From the IMG/VR virus record IMGVR_UViG_3300006789_000083, positions 1-33,328 of that record: 33,328 nt of DNA. One strand, written 5' to 3'. The notes under the pieces were generated by a model. That model did no database searches and had not been told where the DNA came from. It was given only the letters and a program-made list of their open reading frames with translations. The position numbers and the translations under genes are program-made. The DNA comes from a virus. Positions 26,853 to 32,762 of this stretch are shown here, in pieces. Each line of letters starts with the position of its first letter. The first letter of the stretch is position 1.

Positions 26853-27752
26853 ATGAGTCGGCTATCTGAACTTCGTCAGGAAGCCGAATGGCGTCGTTGT
26901 CAACGCGATGAAGCGTATTTCCTCAGGTCTTATTGGAACATTGCTCATCCGGCGCATGGCCGAATCTTGTTTGATCTCAGGGTCGCCCAGTCTGAGGCTT
27001 TGACCCATTGGGACGACAACCGGTACTCGTTGACGCTGAAGGCCCGCCAGATTGGTTGGACGACACTGGTTGCTGCCCACCAGTTCTGGTTGGCTTGGTT
27101 TCACCCAGATCAGAACATCATTGACTTGTCCCGCACGGAACGGGAAGCGGTGCTGCTTCTGCGGAAAACGAAGTACGGGTTCCAGCATCTGCCGCGATGG
27201 CTGCTGGAGCGGGGCCCTAGGTCATTGGTGGAACACCAGCAACGCATGGCGTTCGATAACGGTTCGCAGATCACATCTATGCCGTCGGCGTCAGACCCGG
27301 CGCGTGGCGAATCAGCGACATTGATCGTCGTGGACGAATGGGCGTTCCTGCCTAACCCAGAGGAAGCATGGGCATCCATTGAACCGGTCGCCGATGTAGG
27401 AGGCCGAATAATCGGCCTGAGTACGGCGAACGGGTCCGGCAACTTTTTTCACCATTTGTGGACGGCGGCGTCGGCGGGAAACAACCGGTTTGCCACCATG
27501 TTTTATCCGTGGTCGGCAACCGGGGATCGTGACGAGTCGTGGTACCAGTCCAAGAAGGAGTCGATGCTGTCGTGGCAGTTGGCTCAGGAGTATCCGTCTA
27601 CCCCTGAAGAAGCGTTCATCAAGTCAGGTAACCCTGTCTTCGATTTGGACATGCTTCAGGAACTGGAAGCGGGTTGCAGGGCCGGCCGTGAAGGCTGGTT
27701 GGCTAACCCGTCTGGCAGGGCTCCTGAGTGGAGAGCGGGGAGGGCGGCATGA
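26853..27752 (+). CDS. terL: Terminase large subunit, ATPase half
   Basis: This 299-residue protein carries the ATPase domain of a large terminase. The Walker A variant is at 63-71 (KARQIGWTT), Walker B at about 157-162 (LIVVDE), and a coupling segment GLSTANG is at 188-194. The motor domain appears complete, but the nuclease domain is encoded in the next frame, which starts in an ATGA overlap. The C-terminal end here is a short linker (GRAPEWRAGRAA). The ribosome site is unusually close to the ATG (GAAGG directly upstream). The complete enzyme would package DNA into the prohead. Confidence 0.9.
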   Translation: MSRLSELRQEAEWRRCQRDEAYFLRSYWNIAHPAHGRILFDLRVAQSEALTHWDDNRYSLTLKARQIGWTTLVAAHQFWLAWFHPDQNIIDLSRTEREAVLLLRKTKYGFQHLPRWLLERGPRSLVEHQQRMAFDNGSQITSMPSASDPARGESATLIVVDEWAFLPNPEEAWASIEPVADVGGRIIGLSTANGSGNFFHHLWTAASAGNNRFATMFYPWSATGDRDESWYQSKKESMLSWQLAQEYPSTPEEAFIKSGNPVFDLDMLQELEAGCRAGREGWLANPSGRAPEWRAGRAA

Positions 27753-28426
27753 GTTTGACTGTGTGGGCTGATCCCGTTGCGATGTCCGGCTATGTGATCG
27801 GTGTTGATACGGCAGAAGGGTTGGGGCACGGCGACTATTCTTGCGCTCAGGTGTTGTGCCTGAACACGGGCGAACAGGTCGCTGTGTGGCACGGCCACAT
27901 CCCTCCAGACGAGTTCGCTCACGAGATCCACAACATGGCGTTGTGGTACCGCGACGCCTTGACCTGCGTCGAGTCGAACAACCACGGGTTGACGACGATC
28001 ACCGAACTGAGACATCTGGGGCATCCGAATCTGTTTCGGAAACGCACATTGAATCAGGCGACAACGAAGATCACGCAGGAATACGGTTTCAAGACGACGA
28101 GAACAACGAAACCTTTGATGATTGACGAGTTGGGGGCTGCTCTCAGGAACAACGAGTTGGCGCTACGCGATCCGTACACGGTCGCAGAGTTGCGGACATT
28201 CGTCAGGAATGAACGCGGCTCTATGAGTGGGTCGCCGCACGACGATAGGGTCATTGCGTTGGCGTTGGCGAATCAGATGCGTAAGTATGCTTATGCCCCA
28301 GAGTTTGTGGCGAAGGTCAATGATTATTGGACGATTGATTGGTTCAATCGTTTGGGGTCTGATGAGGGTGGCGAGCAGATGCGGATTGGCGCTAATGCTG
28401 TCCGTGGGACACGCTTGCCGTCCTAA
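27749..28426 (+). CDS. terL: Terminase large subunit, nuclease half
   Basis: The ATG overlaps the stop of the ATPase half (ATGA). The frame is open from 27728, so a -1 frameshift could also join the two. The 225-residue protein has the RNase H-like nuclease motifs: YVIGVDTAEG (Asp20), CVESNNHG (Glu75) and SPHDDRVIALALA (Asp165/166). It would cut concatemeric phage DNA at packaging. In most phages this is one polypeptide with the ATPase. Here it is split at the interdomain linker without any inserted element. Confidence 0.88.
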   Translation: MSLTVWADPVAMSGYVIGVDTAEGLGHGDYSCAQVLCLNTGEQVAVWHGHIPPDEFAHEIHNMALWYRDALTCVESNNHGLTTITELRHLGHPNLFRKRTLNQATTKITQEYGFKTTRTTKPLMIDELGAALRNNELALRDPYTVAELRTFVRNERGSMSGSPHDDRVIALALANQMRKYAYAPEFVAKVNDYWTIDWFNRLGSDEGGEQMRIGANAVRGTRLPS

Positions 28427-28721: not shown

Positions 28722-28991
28722 ATGGCGGTTCTGCCGCCTGAAGCCACTTATGTCGAGTTCTGCGAGTACGTCACGGATCTCAAGGGTCCGAGGTCGGAAG
28801 CGGAGTTGGAAGATTTGTGGTCTTGGCGTCAAAAACTCGTTGGTATCAAGTTTGATATGGGCCGTGGGTATCGCAGCACTCTCCCGTCCGACGAGCAGGA
28901 TCTCACGATGAATCAGCGTGAGGCCAAGGTGATCGCTGAGGCTAAGGCTCAGGGCCGCAACATTGAACCTGTTGGAAAGCGGTGGGTGTAA
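28722..28991 (+). CDS. Unknown protein before portal (89 aa)
   Basis: The ATG follows the previous stop by 2 bp. The protein is mostly helical and acidic to neutral (EATYVEFCEYVTDLKG, EAKAQGRNIEPVG). Its TAA overlaps the portal ATG (TAATG), implying coupled translation with the portal. No family is recognised. Confidence 0.55.
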   Translation: MAVLPPEATYVEFCEYVTDLKGPRSEAELEDLWSWRQKLVGIKFDMGRGYRSTLPSDEQDLTMNQREAKVIAEAKAQGRNIEPVGKRWV

Positions 28992-30901
28992 TGGCCCGTA
29001 AGACCCGTGTTGAACTGCATGAGCAGTACAAGCAGCGGTTGGATTTGGCGAAGCGGTTTCGGAACCATGAGGGTTACGAGAACACTTGGCGGCGACTGAA
29101 CGATTTGTACCGGGGCAAGCATTGGCCTGCCACGACTAGCACGAAGTCGGATTTGATTGCGGTCAATCTGGCGTTTTCGACTATCAATGTGATTGCGCCG
29201 TCTGTCGCCGTGAATCATCCGAAGATTGTGGTGAATGCCAATCAGCCGGAGGATGCTGACCGGGCGGTCTTTGTTGAAGCGGTGATGAACCATATGTGGC
29301 GACACCACGATTTCCGTCGCCCGTTCCGACGCGCTGTGAAGGATTTCTTGATTTTCGGCCACGGGTGGTTGAAAGTTGGTTGGCGGTTCACGGAACAAGA
29401 ACGCAGCATTTCTGATGCTGAACGTGACGACATGTACGATCAGGCGGTCATGGAGGCTGAGGAAGCCGCTATGGAAATGCCTGATATGGCTGGCGAAATG
29501 CCGACCGATGAGGACATCGCAGCGAATCTGCCTTCAACGATGCTTTCCATTGTTGAGGACCAGCCTTTCGTTGAAAGGGTCTCGCCTTACGACATGTATG
29601 TTGATCCTGAAGCAACCTGCATGGATGACATTGCGTGGATTGCTCAACGGATTGTCCGGCCTCTTGAAGATGTTCAAGCGGATAAACGGTATAAGCCTTC
29701 GGTTCGGAAGAAGTTGACCGCTGATGCCGGGTTGAATCCGGCGTATCAGGATCCTTATGATCGTTCGCAGTTCAATGCTGAAACCGACCGGGTTACGTTA
29801 TGGGAGTATTACGACATAGCGTCGAACACTATGGCGGTGTGTTCGGAAACTGGCGACGAGTTCCTGTTGGATCCGACGCCGATGCCGTATGCGTATGGGC
29901 ATCCGTTTGTGATGCTACGCAACTACGACATCCCCGATTTCTTCTATCCGGTGGGCGATCTGGAGTCCATTGAGTCTCTCCAGTTGGAGTTGGATAAGAC
30001 TCGTTCCCAGTTGATGAACGACCGGAAACGGTATGCCCGCAAGTACCTGTACCACGAGCGGTCGTTCGGGCCTGAAGGCCGCGAGGCTTTGGAATCGGAC
30101 ACTGATGGCCGTTTGGTTCCGGTGGTCGATGAGAACAAGCCTCTGAACGAGGTTGTTATTCCGATGCCGCAGGTGCCATTGAGCCCTGAGATCTATAACT
30201 ACAGCCAGATCATCACTGAAGACATCAATGTTGTTTCTGGTGTCAATGAGTATGCGCGCGGTCAGATGCCCGAGATTCGCCGCACGGCGACTGAGGCCAG
30301 CATTATTGCTGATGCGTCCAATGCGCGGGCAGCAGACAAGTTGGCCATTGTCGAAATCGCCATTGGCGATATTGCACGGCGGGTTCTTCAACTCCTTCAG
30401 CAGTACATGACGGGGGAGGCCATGACCCGGGTCGCTCAACGCGATGGCCAAGACATGTTTGTTGAGTATTCCCGCGACGACATCGTAGGTGAGTACGATT
30501 TTACTGTTGAAGGCGGTTCAACTCAGCCAATCAATGACACCATTCGTAAACAGCAGGCTGTTTCATTGCTGAATGCCATTGGCCCATTGGTTGGTACTGT
30601 CATTGACCCCGCCCAGTTGGCTGTTCATGTGCTACGGGAAGGGTTCAACATCAAGAACCCTGAGAAGTTCCTGATGCAGCAGCAGCCGCAAGCCCCCGTT
30701 GACCCCAATAGCCCAGATGGGGCACCTCCCCCGGGGCCAGAGCAGGCCGGCCCAATGGGGTCGGTCCCAATGGACCCAATGGCAATGGGGCAGCCCATTA
30801 CATCGCCAATAGATGGGGCGTTTGCCCCGACTGGCGGTGTCCCGCCTGAGTTGTTGGCTCAGTTGCAGAATCAAATGGGGCTAGAGTTACCTGCCCTCTA
30901 G
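28991..30901 (+). CDS. Portal protein
   Basis: The start at 28991 overlaps the previous stop (TAATG). The 636-residue protein has a portal-like N-terminal region (about 20-130, with NVIAPSVAVNHPKIVVNANQ), a stem and wing region that includes SPYDMYVDPEA, and a helical C-terminal half with NEYARGQMPEIRRTATEAS and many Ala/Gln helices. The C-terminus is Gly/Pro/Met rich. Its TAG ends at 30901, which is also the first base of the tmRNA-like acceptor stem. It would form the packaging vertex. Scaffold and capsid genes follow. Confidence 0.8.
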   Translation: MARKTRVELHEQYKQRLDLAKRFRNHEGYENTWRRLNDLYRGKHWPATTSTKSDLIAVNLAFSTINVIAPSVAVNHPKIVVNANQPEDADRAVFVEAVMNHMWRHHDFRRPFRRAVKDFLIFGHGWLKVGWRFTEQERSISDAERDDMYDQAVMEAEEAAMEMPDMAGEMPTDEDIAANLPSTMLSIVEDQPFVERVSPYDMYVDPEATCMDDIAWIAQRIVRPLEDVQADKRYKPSVRKKLTADAGLNPAYQDPYDRSQFNAETDRVTLWEYYDIASNTMAVCSETGDEFLLDPTPMPYAYGHPFVMLRNYDIPDFFYPVGDLESIESLQLELDKTRSQLMNDRKRYARKYLYHERSFGPEGREALESDTDGRLVPVVDENKPLNEVVIPMPQVPLSPEIYNYSQIITEDINVVSGVNEYARGQMPEIRRTATEASIIADASNARAADKLAIVEIAIGDIARRVLQLLQQYMTGEAMTRVAQRDGQDMFVEYSRDDIVGEYDFTVEGGSTQPINDTIRKQQAVSLLNAIGPLVGTVIDPAQLAVHVLREGFNIKNPEKFLMQQQPQAPVDPNSPDGAPPPGPEQAGPMGSVPMDPMAMGQPITSPIDGAFAPTGGVPPELLAQLQNQMGLELPAL

Positions 30902-30980
30902 GGGGTGAAATGGTTTCGACTCGCATGAAAGCCCCATGTGGGAGCGTGCGAGTACCGGGGTTCGACTCCCCGCACCTCCA
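30901..30980 (+). ncRNA. Compact tmRNA-like (tRNA-like domain) RNA
   Basis: The 5' strand GGGGGTG (30901-30907) pairs with CACCTCC (30973-30979) in a 7-bp acceptor stem with G3:U70 wobble, the alanyl-tRNA synthetase identity pair, and discriminator A at 30980. The 5' side reads TGGTTTCGACT, the conserved tmRNA start signature. CTCGCATG (30920-30927) and CGTGCGAG (30945-30952) form an 8-bp P2-like stem with one G:U. CGGGG, TTCGACT, CCCCG (30956-30972) is a perfect T arm. There is no D stem, no anticodon arm with U33 and no tag reading frame. The first G is shared with the portal stop. CCA is not encoded (ACGA follows). It is not a canonical tRNA or a full tmRNA. Confidence 0.75.
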
Positions 30981-31047
30981 CGATGTGGGACACACCCACC
31001 GTCCTATTAGGAGCAACCAGACGTACTGGACTCCCTAGGAGGGCATT

Positions 31048-31791
31048 GTGCCTGAAGACATGGATCTAACAGAATCCGCTGGTGCGGACACTCTGGAGGC
31101 TTCAACAGAGTTTACAACGGAACCTTCTGACACGGAGATGTACACCATCAAGGTGGACGGATCTGAGGAGGAGGTCAGTCTGAGTGAACTCCAGAACGGT
31201 TACCAACGTCAGGCGGATTACACCCGTAAGACGCAGGAGTTGGCAGCCGAACGGGAACGGTTACAGCAGGCGGAGACCATTGCTCAGGCATTGGAATCTG
31301 ATCCAGAGGGCACTCTGAGGGCGCTTGGTAGCGCATTCGGAGTTTCGGGCAATATGCCGGACGCACCACGCGAATCAGCCGATTCGGGAATGTGGGAAGA
31401 ACCGGACGATCCGATGGCTCAACGGTTGGCTCGCATTGAGTCGCAACTGGAACACCAGCAGTCCCTTACCCGTCAGCAGGCTTTAGACAAGGAAGTAACG
31501 GGGTTGAAAGACCGTTACGGCGATTTCGACGAGAACGCTTTGTTCTCTCATGCGTTGAAAGAGCGGATTCCGAACCTAGAGGCGGCTTACGCCCATATGA
31601 ACTTTGGAGAGGTTGCCGGTGCGGCAGCAAAACTTCAGGCTGATAAGGACGTAACTGAGGCCAAGAGAGATGCTTCCGTTGTTGCTGGTGGTAAAACCAC
31701 AGCATCAGGAGCAGTCGCAGCCAAGGGGTCTGATAAACCACCGTCTTCGATTCGGGAAGCGTTCAGCCTTGCGAAGCAGGCTCATACATAA
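31048..31791 (+). CDS. Scaffolding protein
   Basis: GTG 31048 is preceded by AGGAGGG with 5 bp spacing. The 247-residue protein has an acidic N-terminus, then IKVDGSEEEVSLSELQNGYQ and ADYTRKTQELAAER, a recurrent segment in phage scaffolding proteins, and a long helical middle. The C-terminus is Lys/Ser rich and ends before the capsid gene. Position between portal and major capsid protein, with high helix and charge, supports a scaffold that guides prohead assembly and is later removed. Confidence 0.75.
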   Translation: MPEDMDLTESAGADTLEASTEFTTEPSDTEMYTIKVDGSEEEVSLSELQNGYQRQADYTRKTQELAAERERLQQAETIAQALESDPEGTLRALGSAFGVSGNMPDAPRESADSGMWEEPDDPMAQRLARIESQLEHQQSLTRQQALDKEVTGLKDRYGDFDENALFSHALKERIPNLEAAYAHMNFGEVAGAAAKLQADKDVTEAKRDASVVAGGKTTASGAVAAKGSDKPPSSIREAFSLAKQAHT

Positions 31792-31823: not shown

Positions 31824-32762
31824 ATGGCTGGTAACAGCAACTTTGACGAGATTCTCTCTACCACCCTGAACAACTACATCCCGAAGTTGACGGATAACGT
31901 GTTCACGGCTCGACCCCTGTTCTATGCGCTGACCAATGGTCAGTCGATCAGGCGAGTAAGTGGTGGAGCGAAGATCGTGGCTCCCATTCTTTATGGGACC
32001 AACAGCACCGCTGCTTCATACAGCGGAACCGACACCATTGCTACCACGGCTCAGACAGGCATTTCGGCTGCTGAGTTCAACTGGAAGCAGTACGCGGCCA
32101 CGGTGACCATTTCGGGCATTGAGGAAGCGAAGAACAACGGTGAGGCTCAGATCATCGACCTGCTGGAAGGCAAGATCTTCCAGACGCAGGAAACGATCAT
32201 CGAGAACCTGAACACCATGTTCTACGGTGATGGCACCGGCAACTCCGGCAAGGATTGGGAGGGCCTCGCGGCTCTTGTCGATGCTACCGGCACCGTTGGT
32301 GGGATTGATTCAACTGCATCAGGTAACGGCTTTTGGGCCTCTACCGAAACTGCCGTTGGTGGCGCAATAACGACCGCCAAGATGGCCACGATGTACAACA
32401 GCGTGTCTGTTGGCAACGATCAGCCGTCAATCATCATCACCACGCAGGATGTCTACGAGGACTACGAGGCCCTGTTGACGGATCAGATCCGTTACACAGA
32501 CACCGACGTAGCCGACGCGGGCTTCCAGAACCTGCTATTCAAGGGCGCCCCGGTGACCTTTGATTCGGCATGTACCTCTGGTGTCATGTACTACTTGAAC
32601 ACCAAGTACCTGCGCCTCGTTGGCCACACTGAGACTTGGTTCAAGCCAACGCCGTTCGTGCGGCCCACGGACACCGACGCTGTGTACAGCCAGATTCTGT
32701 GCTACGGCAACCTCACCGTCACCAACCGTGCCCGACAGGGCAAGTTGACCGGGATCTCCTAG
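31824..32762 (+). CDS. Major capsid protein (HK97-like fold)
   Basis: AGGAG lies upstream of the ATG. The 312-residue protein has the order of HK97-type capsids: a helical N-arm (LSTTLNNYIPKLTDNVFTARP), a spine and E-loop-like region (GGAKIVAPILYGTN), a P-domain with TISGIEEAKNNGEAQIIDLLEGK and ETIIENLNTMFYGDG, and A-domain beta strands with PSIIITTQDVYEDYEAL. It lies after portal and scaffold and before a strong terminator. There is no cleavage site evidence by eye. It is the main head protein. Confidence 0.88.
   Translation: MAGNSNFDEILSTTLNNYIPKLTDNVFTARPLFYALTNGQSIRRVSGGAKIVAPILYGTNSTAASYSGTDTIATTAQTGISAAEFNWKQYAATVTISGIEEAKNNGEAQIIDLLEGKIFQTQETIIENLNTMFYGDGTGNSGKDWEGLAALVDATGTVGGIDSTASGNGFWASTETAVGGAITTAKMATMYNSVSVGNDQPSIIITTQDVYEDYEALLTDQIRYTDTDVADAGFQNLLFKGAPVTFDSACTSGVMYYLNTKYLRLVGHTETWFKPTPFVRPTDTDAVYSQILCYGNLTVTNRARQGKLTGIS

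Follow-up and report, generated by a model that had tools for sequence, protein, structure and literature searches.

An 80-nt phage gene for the tRNA-shaped end of tmRNA, without the tag-coding message

Canonical tmRNA (Rfam RF00023, ~350 nt) joins a tRNA-like domain (TLD) to a message domain with a resume codon and a tag reading frame. Forms reduced to the TLD have been described in several settings. In phages the form is already known once: mycobacteriophage DS6A encodes a TLD-only tmRNA (Mao et al., 2009, cited in PMC4131195 and PMC11915505), which consists of little beyond the tRNA-like domain, has no tag frame and is reported to inhibit E. coli tmRNA. A TLD-only molecule of DS6A type reportedly inhibits tmRNA strongly, chargeable or not (PMC4131195). 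Organelles also have tmRNAs with a TLD and no tag frame; the mitochondrial ones are kept together with SmpB, and those of Mallomonadaceae plastids are ~65 bp long (PMC11915505). The same minimal architecture is found in TLD fragments made in the laboratory, which are active with SmpB and EF-Tu on ribosomes (Shimizu and Ueda, 2006; Neubauer et al., 2012, via PMC3929946, PMC2481249 and PMC8363625). A TLD fragment and SmpB suffice in vitro for A-site entry and peptidyl transfer, and polyalanine is made as the chain is handed from TLD to TLD (PMC2481249, PMC3929946), while delivery of artificial TLD fragments to ribosomes by SmpB and EF-Tu has been demonstrated and a truncated tmRNA has been crystallised on the ribosome with both proteins (PMC8363625).

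We analysed a window of 33,328 nt, positions 1 to 33,328 of IMG/VR virus record IMGVR_UViG_3300006789_000083. It contains an 80-nt gene that corresponds to the tRNA-shaped end of tmRNA and lacks the part that codes for the tag. The gene and its neighbours are arranged as follows.

28982..30901, + strand: portal protein gene (open reading frame; PHROG 156, E=1e-23, and PHROG 1216)
30901..30980, + strand: tag-less tmRNA-like RNA, tRNA-like domain plus P2 arm, 80 nt to A73 (Rfam RF00023 and family model R1)
30901..30907, + strand: 5' half of the 7-bp acceptor stem, G3 at 30903, partner 30973-30979
30908..30920, + strand: D-loop-like segment AAATGGTTTCGAC, read from the sequence
30921..30951, + strand: P2 arm TCGCATG/CGTGCGA, plus the pair C30920:G30952 (predicted fold, family covariation)
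30932-30942, + strand: internal hairpin CCC-CATGT-GGG capping P2, with AAAG 5' of it (predicted fold)
30952..30955, + strand: variable region GTAC, A30954 being the equivalent of E. coli A334 (A in 114/114 distinct members)
30956..30972, + strand: T arm CGGGG-TTCGACT-CCCCG (family covariation)
30973..30980, + strand: 3' half of the acceptor stem, U70 at 30977 and discriminator A73 at 30980 (sequence, Rfam alignment, family comparison)
31048..31791, + strand: head scaffolding protein gene (PHROG 3927, E=3.4e-16)
31824..32762, + strand: major capsid protein gene (PHROG 9953, E=1.5e-72)

The element has in common with canonical tmRNA the G3:U70 acceptor, A73, the TTCGAC of the D loop, the T arm, P2 and the SmpB-contact bases; it differs in having no resume codon, tag frame or pseudoknots, and the lack of a message sets it apart from the canonical tmRNAs. 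Its tRNA-like parts are a 7-bp acceptor with G3:U70, A73, a T arm and a reduced D arm. Just 35 nt separate TTCGAC from the T arm, which excludes a message domain and leaves no room for the pseudoknots PK1-PK4; the P2 loop holds a 3-bp hairpin instead. This one-piece, phage-encoded TLD with a short P2 and no message has the architecture of the DS6A type. DS6A, reported as a single case, is a temperate mycobacteriophage, whereas the present element belongs to an unclassified virus and is flanked there by the portal and scaffold genes. It contrasts with the organellar molecules, each its organelle's only tmRNA and in mitochondria usually permuted, in standing beside a bacterial host that should have its own tmRNA, and with the artificial TLDs, which are laboratory constructs, in being a natural cut-down molecule.

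Covariance-model searches supported this assignment. The RF00023 match at 30901-30983 scores 69 bits (gathering score 47; E=4.7e-25) and reaches from one end of the model to the other, with nearly all of the message region deleted. The family model R1 scores the element at 80.7 bits. ARAGORN reported no tRNA or tmRNA in the region, which implies that standard annotation would overlook the element. The predicted fold has a minimum free energy of -37.8 kcal/mol, with a z-score of -3.05, and none of 200 shuffled sequences folded equally well. The element has no cloverleaf with D stem and anticodon arm, and a tRNA with an odd anticodon arm was rejected on the ARAGORN result, on the unpaired D segment of the family structure and on cmscan, in which the tmRNA model was best. 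A two-piece (permuted) tmRNA was also rejected, as the 5' and 3' halves stand in normal order within the 80 nt. CCA is not encoded after A73 in the window, where the next bases are CGA, and a scan of the surroundings found no promoter- or terminator-like sites above chance level.

The original prediction had described the start, ends and pairs of this RNA correctly, including the 7-bp acceptor GGGGGTG/CACCTCC with G3 (30903) opposite U70 (30977) and the perfect 5-bp T stem CGGGG/CCCCG around TTCGACT. Its 8-bp P2-like stem is right provided that the pair C30920:G30952 is counted. The 17-nt length given for the P2 loop is likewise right, but the loop is not open: it is predicted to fold as AAAG-CCC-CAUGU-GGG-AG, and a small inner hairpin of this kind is common to most of the family. 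L194, L202, L133 and L217 have a bare P2 stem-loop with no inner hairpin and reach down to ~65 nt (L194), a length that resembles the reported plastid forms.

Comparison within the family, whose collection is described below, provided evidence for selection on the structure. In the model-based alignment of 60 distinct sequences, pairing is kept in 95.3% of cells and 18 of the 22 base pairs change on both sides; double-change cells number 394 compared to 116.5 in shuffles, and the covariation score is 0.751 compared to 0.147 when shuffled and ≤0.112 when slid. By helix, P2 is paired in 92.5% of cells with double changes in all 7 pairs, the inner helix is paired in 88.3%, and the T arm is paired in 99.0% with double changes in 4 of 5 pairs. 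The 60-sequence alignment was fitted to the structure, whereas a gap-free test of P2 was not: P2 had never been selected for, and when it was read from the fixed motifs, 6.1 of 7 positions paired compared to 2.99 ± 0.17 with shuffled partners. Similarly, the 5' half of the acceptor lay outside the search pattern, and 87 of 94 distinct matches still form all seven pairs. A lack of compensatory changes in homologous phages had been named as grounds for abandoning the proposal; the abundance of double changes is the opposite result. Judged from its sequence and its relatives, the element is a conserved, structured RNA of alanine type.

The alanine identity is strict. The 3:70 pair is G:U in 114/114 distinct members and never G:C or A:U; U70 belonged to the search pattern for this set and G3 did not. 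A search that placed no constraint on base 70 gave 88 full acceptors, of which 87 had G3:U70, and the sole exception (L353) is unlike a TLD in appearance, so that the loss of G3:U70 in relatives for which the original prediction had asked us to look did not appear. The bases that would contact SmpB are conserved as well. By the cryo-EM account in PMC8363625, the tryptophan pocket of SmpB is formed by A15, U17 and A334, and G19 packs on SmpB; in the numbering assigned in this analysis, the equivalents of E. coli U17 and G19 are U30916 and G30918, and the A334 equivalent is A in all 114 distinct members. In members found without requiring TTCGAC the motif varies (e.g., GTAGAC and GTTGAC in L223 and L255), and U17 and G19 are mostly kept. 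CCA is encoded in a minority of members only. A search of 37 records found no SmpB gene, which argues against SmpB supplied by the phage and implies that host SmpB would serve.

A scan of IMG/VR for TTCGAC with a T arm close behind gave about twenty such elements, and adding TCCAC at the 3' end gave at least 120 matches. Two complete scans with fixed acceptor letters found 46 and 40 contigs, of which the matches listed before had contained 17 and 16, respectively; from this recovery we estimate that ~300 IMG/VR contigs carry the exact search pattern. The loci collected from these scans number at least 164, with 114 distinct elements, and such counts are exact-pattern lower bounds. By contrast, among 84,980 cellular species, represented by one genome each, the same pattern occurred in 73 stretches, of which ~14 were true members by parse. 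One of these lies within a cyanobacterial tRNA array. Another is on a 130,604-base contig of the Prochlorococcus sp. AG-409-P03 assembly, and the IMG/VR viral contig L360 is also 130,604 bases long. The rarity in cellular genomes and this viral counterpart imply that the gene is mainly a phage gene. Tag-less tmRNA genes also stand in the tRNA clusters L272 5901-7347 (cyanobacterium), L300 568-1659 (Cellulosimicrobium) and L327 1769-2310 (Terracoccus), which are perhaps prophages or tRNA arrays.

The family model was seeded with members of equal length, as a MAFFT alignment of all lengths placed the 5' end wrongly. BLAST matches occurred in the cultured Streptomyces phages Shaeky, LuckySocke, GiJojo, pSt2308, Alone3, BRock, Riptide, Tomas and Naboo, and the model confirmed six (Shaeky, LuckySocke, pSt2308, BRock, Riptide and Tomas), none of which has an annotation at the element's position in its record. 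Several other BLAST matches were limited to the T arm (Microbacterium, Arthrobacter, Pseudomonas, S-CAM1, Gordonia, Caulobacter, phiGD17-1 and Ruegeria); under the model they either fell far short of family scores or gave none, and they were dropped.

At the home junction, PHROG matches to the flanking portal and scaffolding genes agree with the placement originally proposed. The portal stop TAG occupies 30899-30901, and its last base is G1 (G30901) of the RNA. Among the portal relatives, L222 is identical here, and the orthologues in L223 and L255, whose portal identity is 84-87%, have diverged in sequence but keep the fold with changed pairs. In relatives with junction sequence from the 81% portal group and beyond, 60-77 nt lie between the genes and no element was found. 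The shared stop base is present in the window as first described but is not a conserved feature of the junction, since the RNA of L223 and L255 begins 3 nt past the portal stop. A shared TAG-stop base recurs in L046, L129, L162 (exonuclease-like gene), L180 (methyltransferase-like gene) and the L009 group, where a cut by RNase P would strip the upstream mRNA of its stop codon; an overlap of ssrA and smpB reported in Carsonella (PMC4131195) offers a comparison. Across the family, gaps to upstream genes vary freely, a spread that looks like tight packing. An actinophage host, which had been presumed, is not borne out by the capsid protein, whose nearest relatives in isolated phages are at most ~40% identical and have mixed hosts.

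Two other features of this region were seen. A conserved leader follows the portal gene at 30985-31039 of the window and at the corresponding position in L223-L256, in the relatives examined, whether the RNA is present or absent. It reads TGGGACA..., then GGAG-CAA-CC...GG-A-CTCC ahead of the scaffold gene's AGGAGG site, in L229 GGAG/CTCC is replaced by the compensatory GGAA/TTCC, and the leader may control translation of the scaffold gene. For the terminase large subunit, the sequence gives two overlapping frames (26853-27752 and 27728-28426) that match different parts of terminase families; a split gene, a frameshift or an assembly error are alternatives for 26853-28426.

Elsewhere, copies in head operons occur in unrelated phages: in L022 and L132 the element lies between the head maturation protease and major capsid genes, in L149 near the portal gene and in L150 between terminase and capsid. 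In L136, L217, L219 and L046 it adjoins replication or recombination genes, and 25 of 113 IMG/VR loci have a tRNA gene within 1 kb, in 23 on the same strand. Riptide (W01 94862-95130) and Tomas (W02 97147-97421), with L333 1177-1253 and L123 1478-1555, have a full-length tmRNA together with a separate tag-less one, which suggests that the two forms do different jobs.

The element probably works like the tRNA half of tmRNA. On balance we judge it probable, by a modest measure, that the element is charged by the host, enters stalled ribosomes in place of host tmRNA, competes with it and lowers tagging. The RNA would be transcribed with the late head genes and then excised by tRNA processing enzymes. 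The invariant G3:U70 and A73 suggest that the host CCA-adding enzyme and AlaRS would turn it into Ala-RNA, and the conserved SmpB-contact bases suggest that host SmpB and EF-Tu would bring it to ribosomes stalled on broken mRNA. There the nascent chain would move onto alanine, and the RNA would give no resume codon and no tag. In rivalling host tmRNA for SmpB and stalled ribosomes, it would cause tagging and proteolysis to fall in late infection. An alanine-charged decoy of trans-translation had been suggested at the outset; the tag-less tmRNA-like RNA and its intact alanine identity stand, and the role in trans-translation is plausible.

Two observations sit uneasily with competition as the whole account. 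The DS6A-type inhibitor reportedly acts whether or not it is chargeable (PMC4131195), so inhibition alone leaves the invariant G3:U70 unexplained, and the full-length tmRNA of Riptide and Tomas would be odd if the purpose were to shut off tagging. A tentative alternative, which is possible though doubtful, is that tag-less rescue or untemplated alanine tailing is itself the purpose, with charged RNA and SmpB freeing or extending stalled chains so that the phage regains ribosomes. The invariant G3:U70, by which charging matters, the two phages that retain both forms, the message-less tmRNA that mitochondria keep with SmpB (PMC11915505) and the in vitro relay of a growing polyalanine chain between TLDs (PMC2481249) are all consistent with it. 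However, polyalanine synthesis is known in vitro only, with no indication of how the chain gets released, and the DS6A form gave inhibition when expressed (PMC4131195, PMC11915505). The possible outcome resembles alanine tailing by RqcH (RQC), in that untemplated alanine is put on stalled chains, by analogy only: RqcH is a protein factor that uses ordinary tRNA-Ala on split 50S subunits. We consider rather unlikely the wider proposition that a widespread phage family runs the tRNA half of trans-translation alone in vivo via host SmpB, with successive charged TLDs adding untemplated alanines or passing the chain to release, and tag-less rescue replacing host tagging.

That the RNA merely titrates SmpB, uncharged, is quite improbable. 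The SmpB-contact bases are conserved and the TLD-only inhibitor reportedly acts chargeable or not (PMC4131195), but a pure SmpB sponge needs no charging, and the strict G:U at 3:70 in 114/114 members argues against it. The original prediction had also offered a tRNA-like fold at which RNase P parts portal mRNA from scaffold and capsid mRNA. The element does lie exactly between genes with a stop-codon base shared, and a cut before G30901 would take off the last base of the stop. The 3-nt spacing in the orthologues L223 and L255 and the variable upstream gaps nevertheless weaken this proposal, many copies are in tRNA clusters or next to replication genes, and a mere cleavage site would not preserve G3:U70 and the A334 equivalent; we rejected punctuation as the main role and regard a processing signal as very improbable. 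It is barely conceivable that the element is a relic, either a decaying message-less tmRNA gene or the remnant of an attachment site. Phages do integrate into tmRNA genes and prophages contain fragments of them, yet both halves are retained here with extensive covariation, which already contradicts decay, and the RNA recurs in many unrelated phages and sits inside a late operon. An attachment site was rejected in view of the two halves and the location between head genes. The element thus has the look of a functional tool with which the phage intervenes in ribosome rescue, not of a relic.

The original prediction was unaware of any earlier report of such a molecule, but the DS6A element is one. 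What appears new is how widely the family occurs, how strictly it keeps G3:U70 and that it is placed in head-gene operons. In a non-exhaustive search of open-licence literature, we found no paper on a broad family, its covariation, the invariant alanine pair or late-operon placement, and expert tmRNA surveys name one phage with a tag-less tmRNA. If the family is real and active, many phages disturb or replace a quality-control pathway of nearly all bacteria by means of an 80-nt RNA. The family would provide a diverse set of naturally occurring TLDs in which the tRNA function of tmRNA stands apart from the messenger function. Experiments are practical because several cultured Streptomyces phages have the RNA, and two old questions become testable: how a lone TLD affects stalled ribosomes in vivo, and for what reason organelles retain message-less tmRNA.
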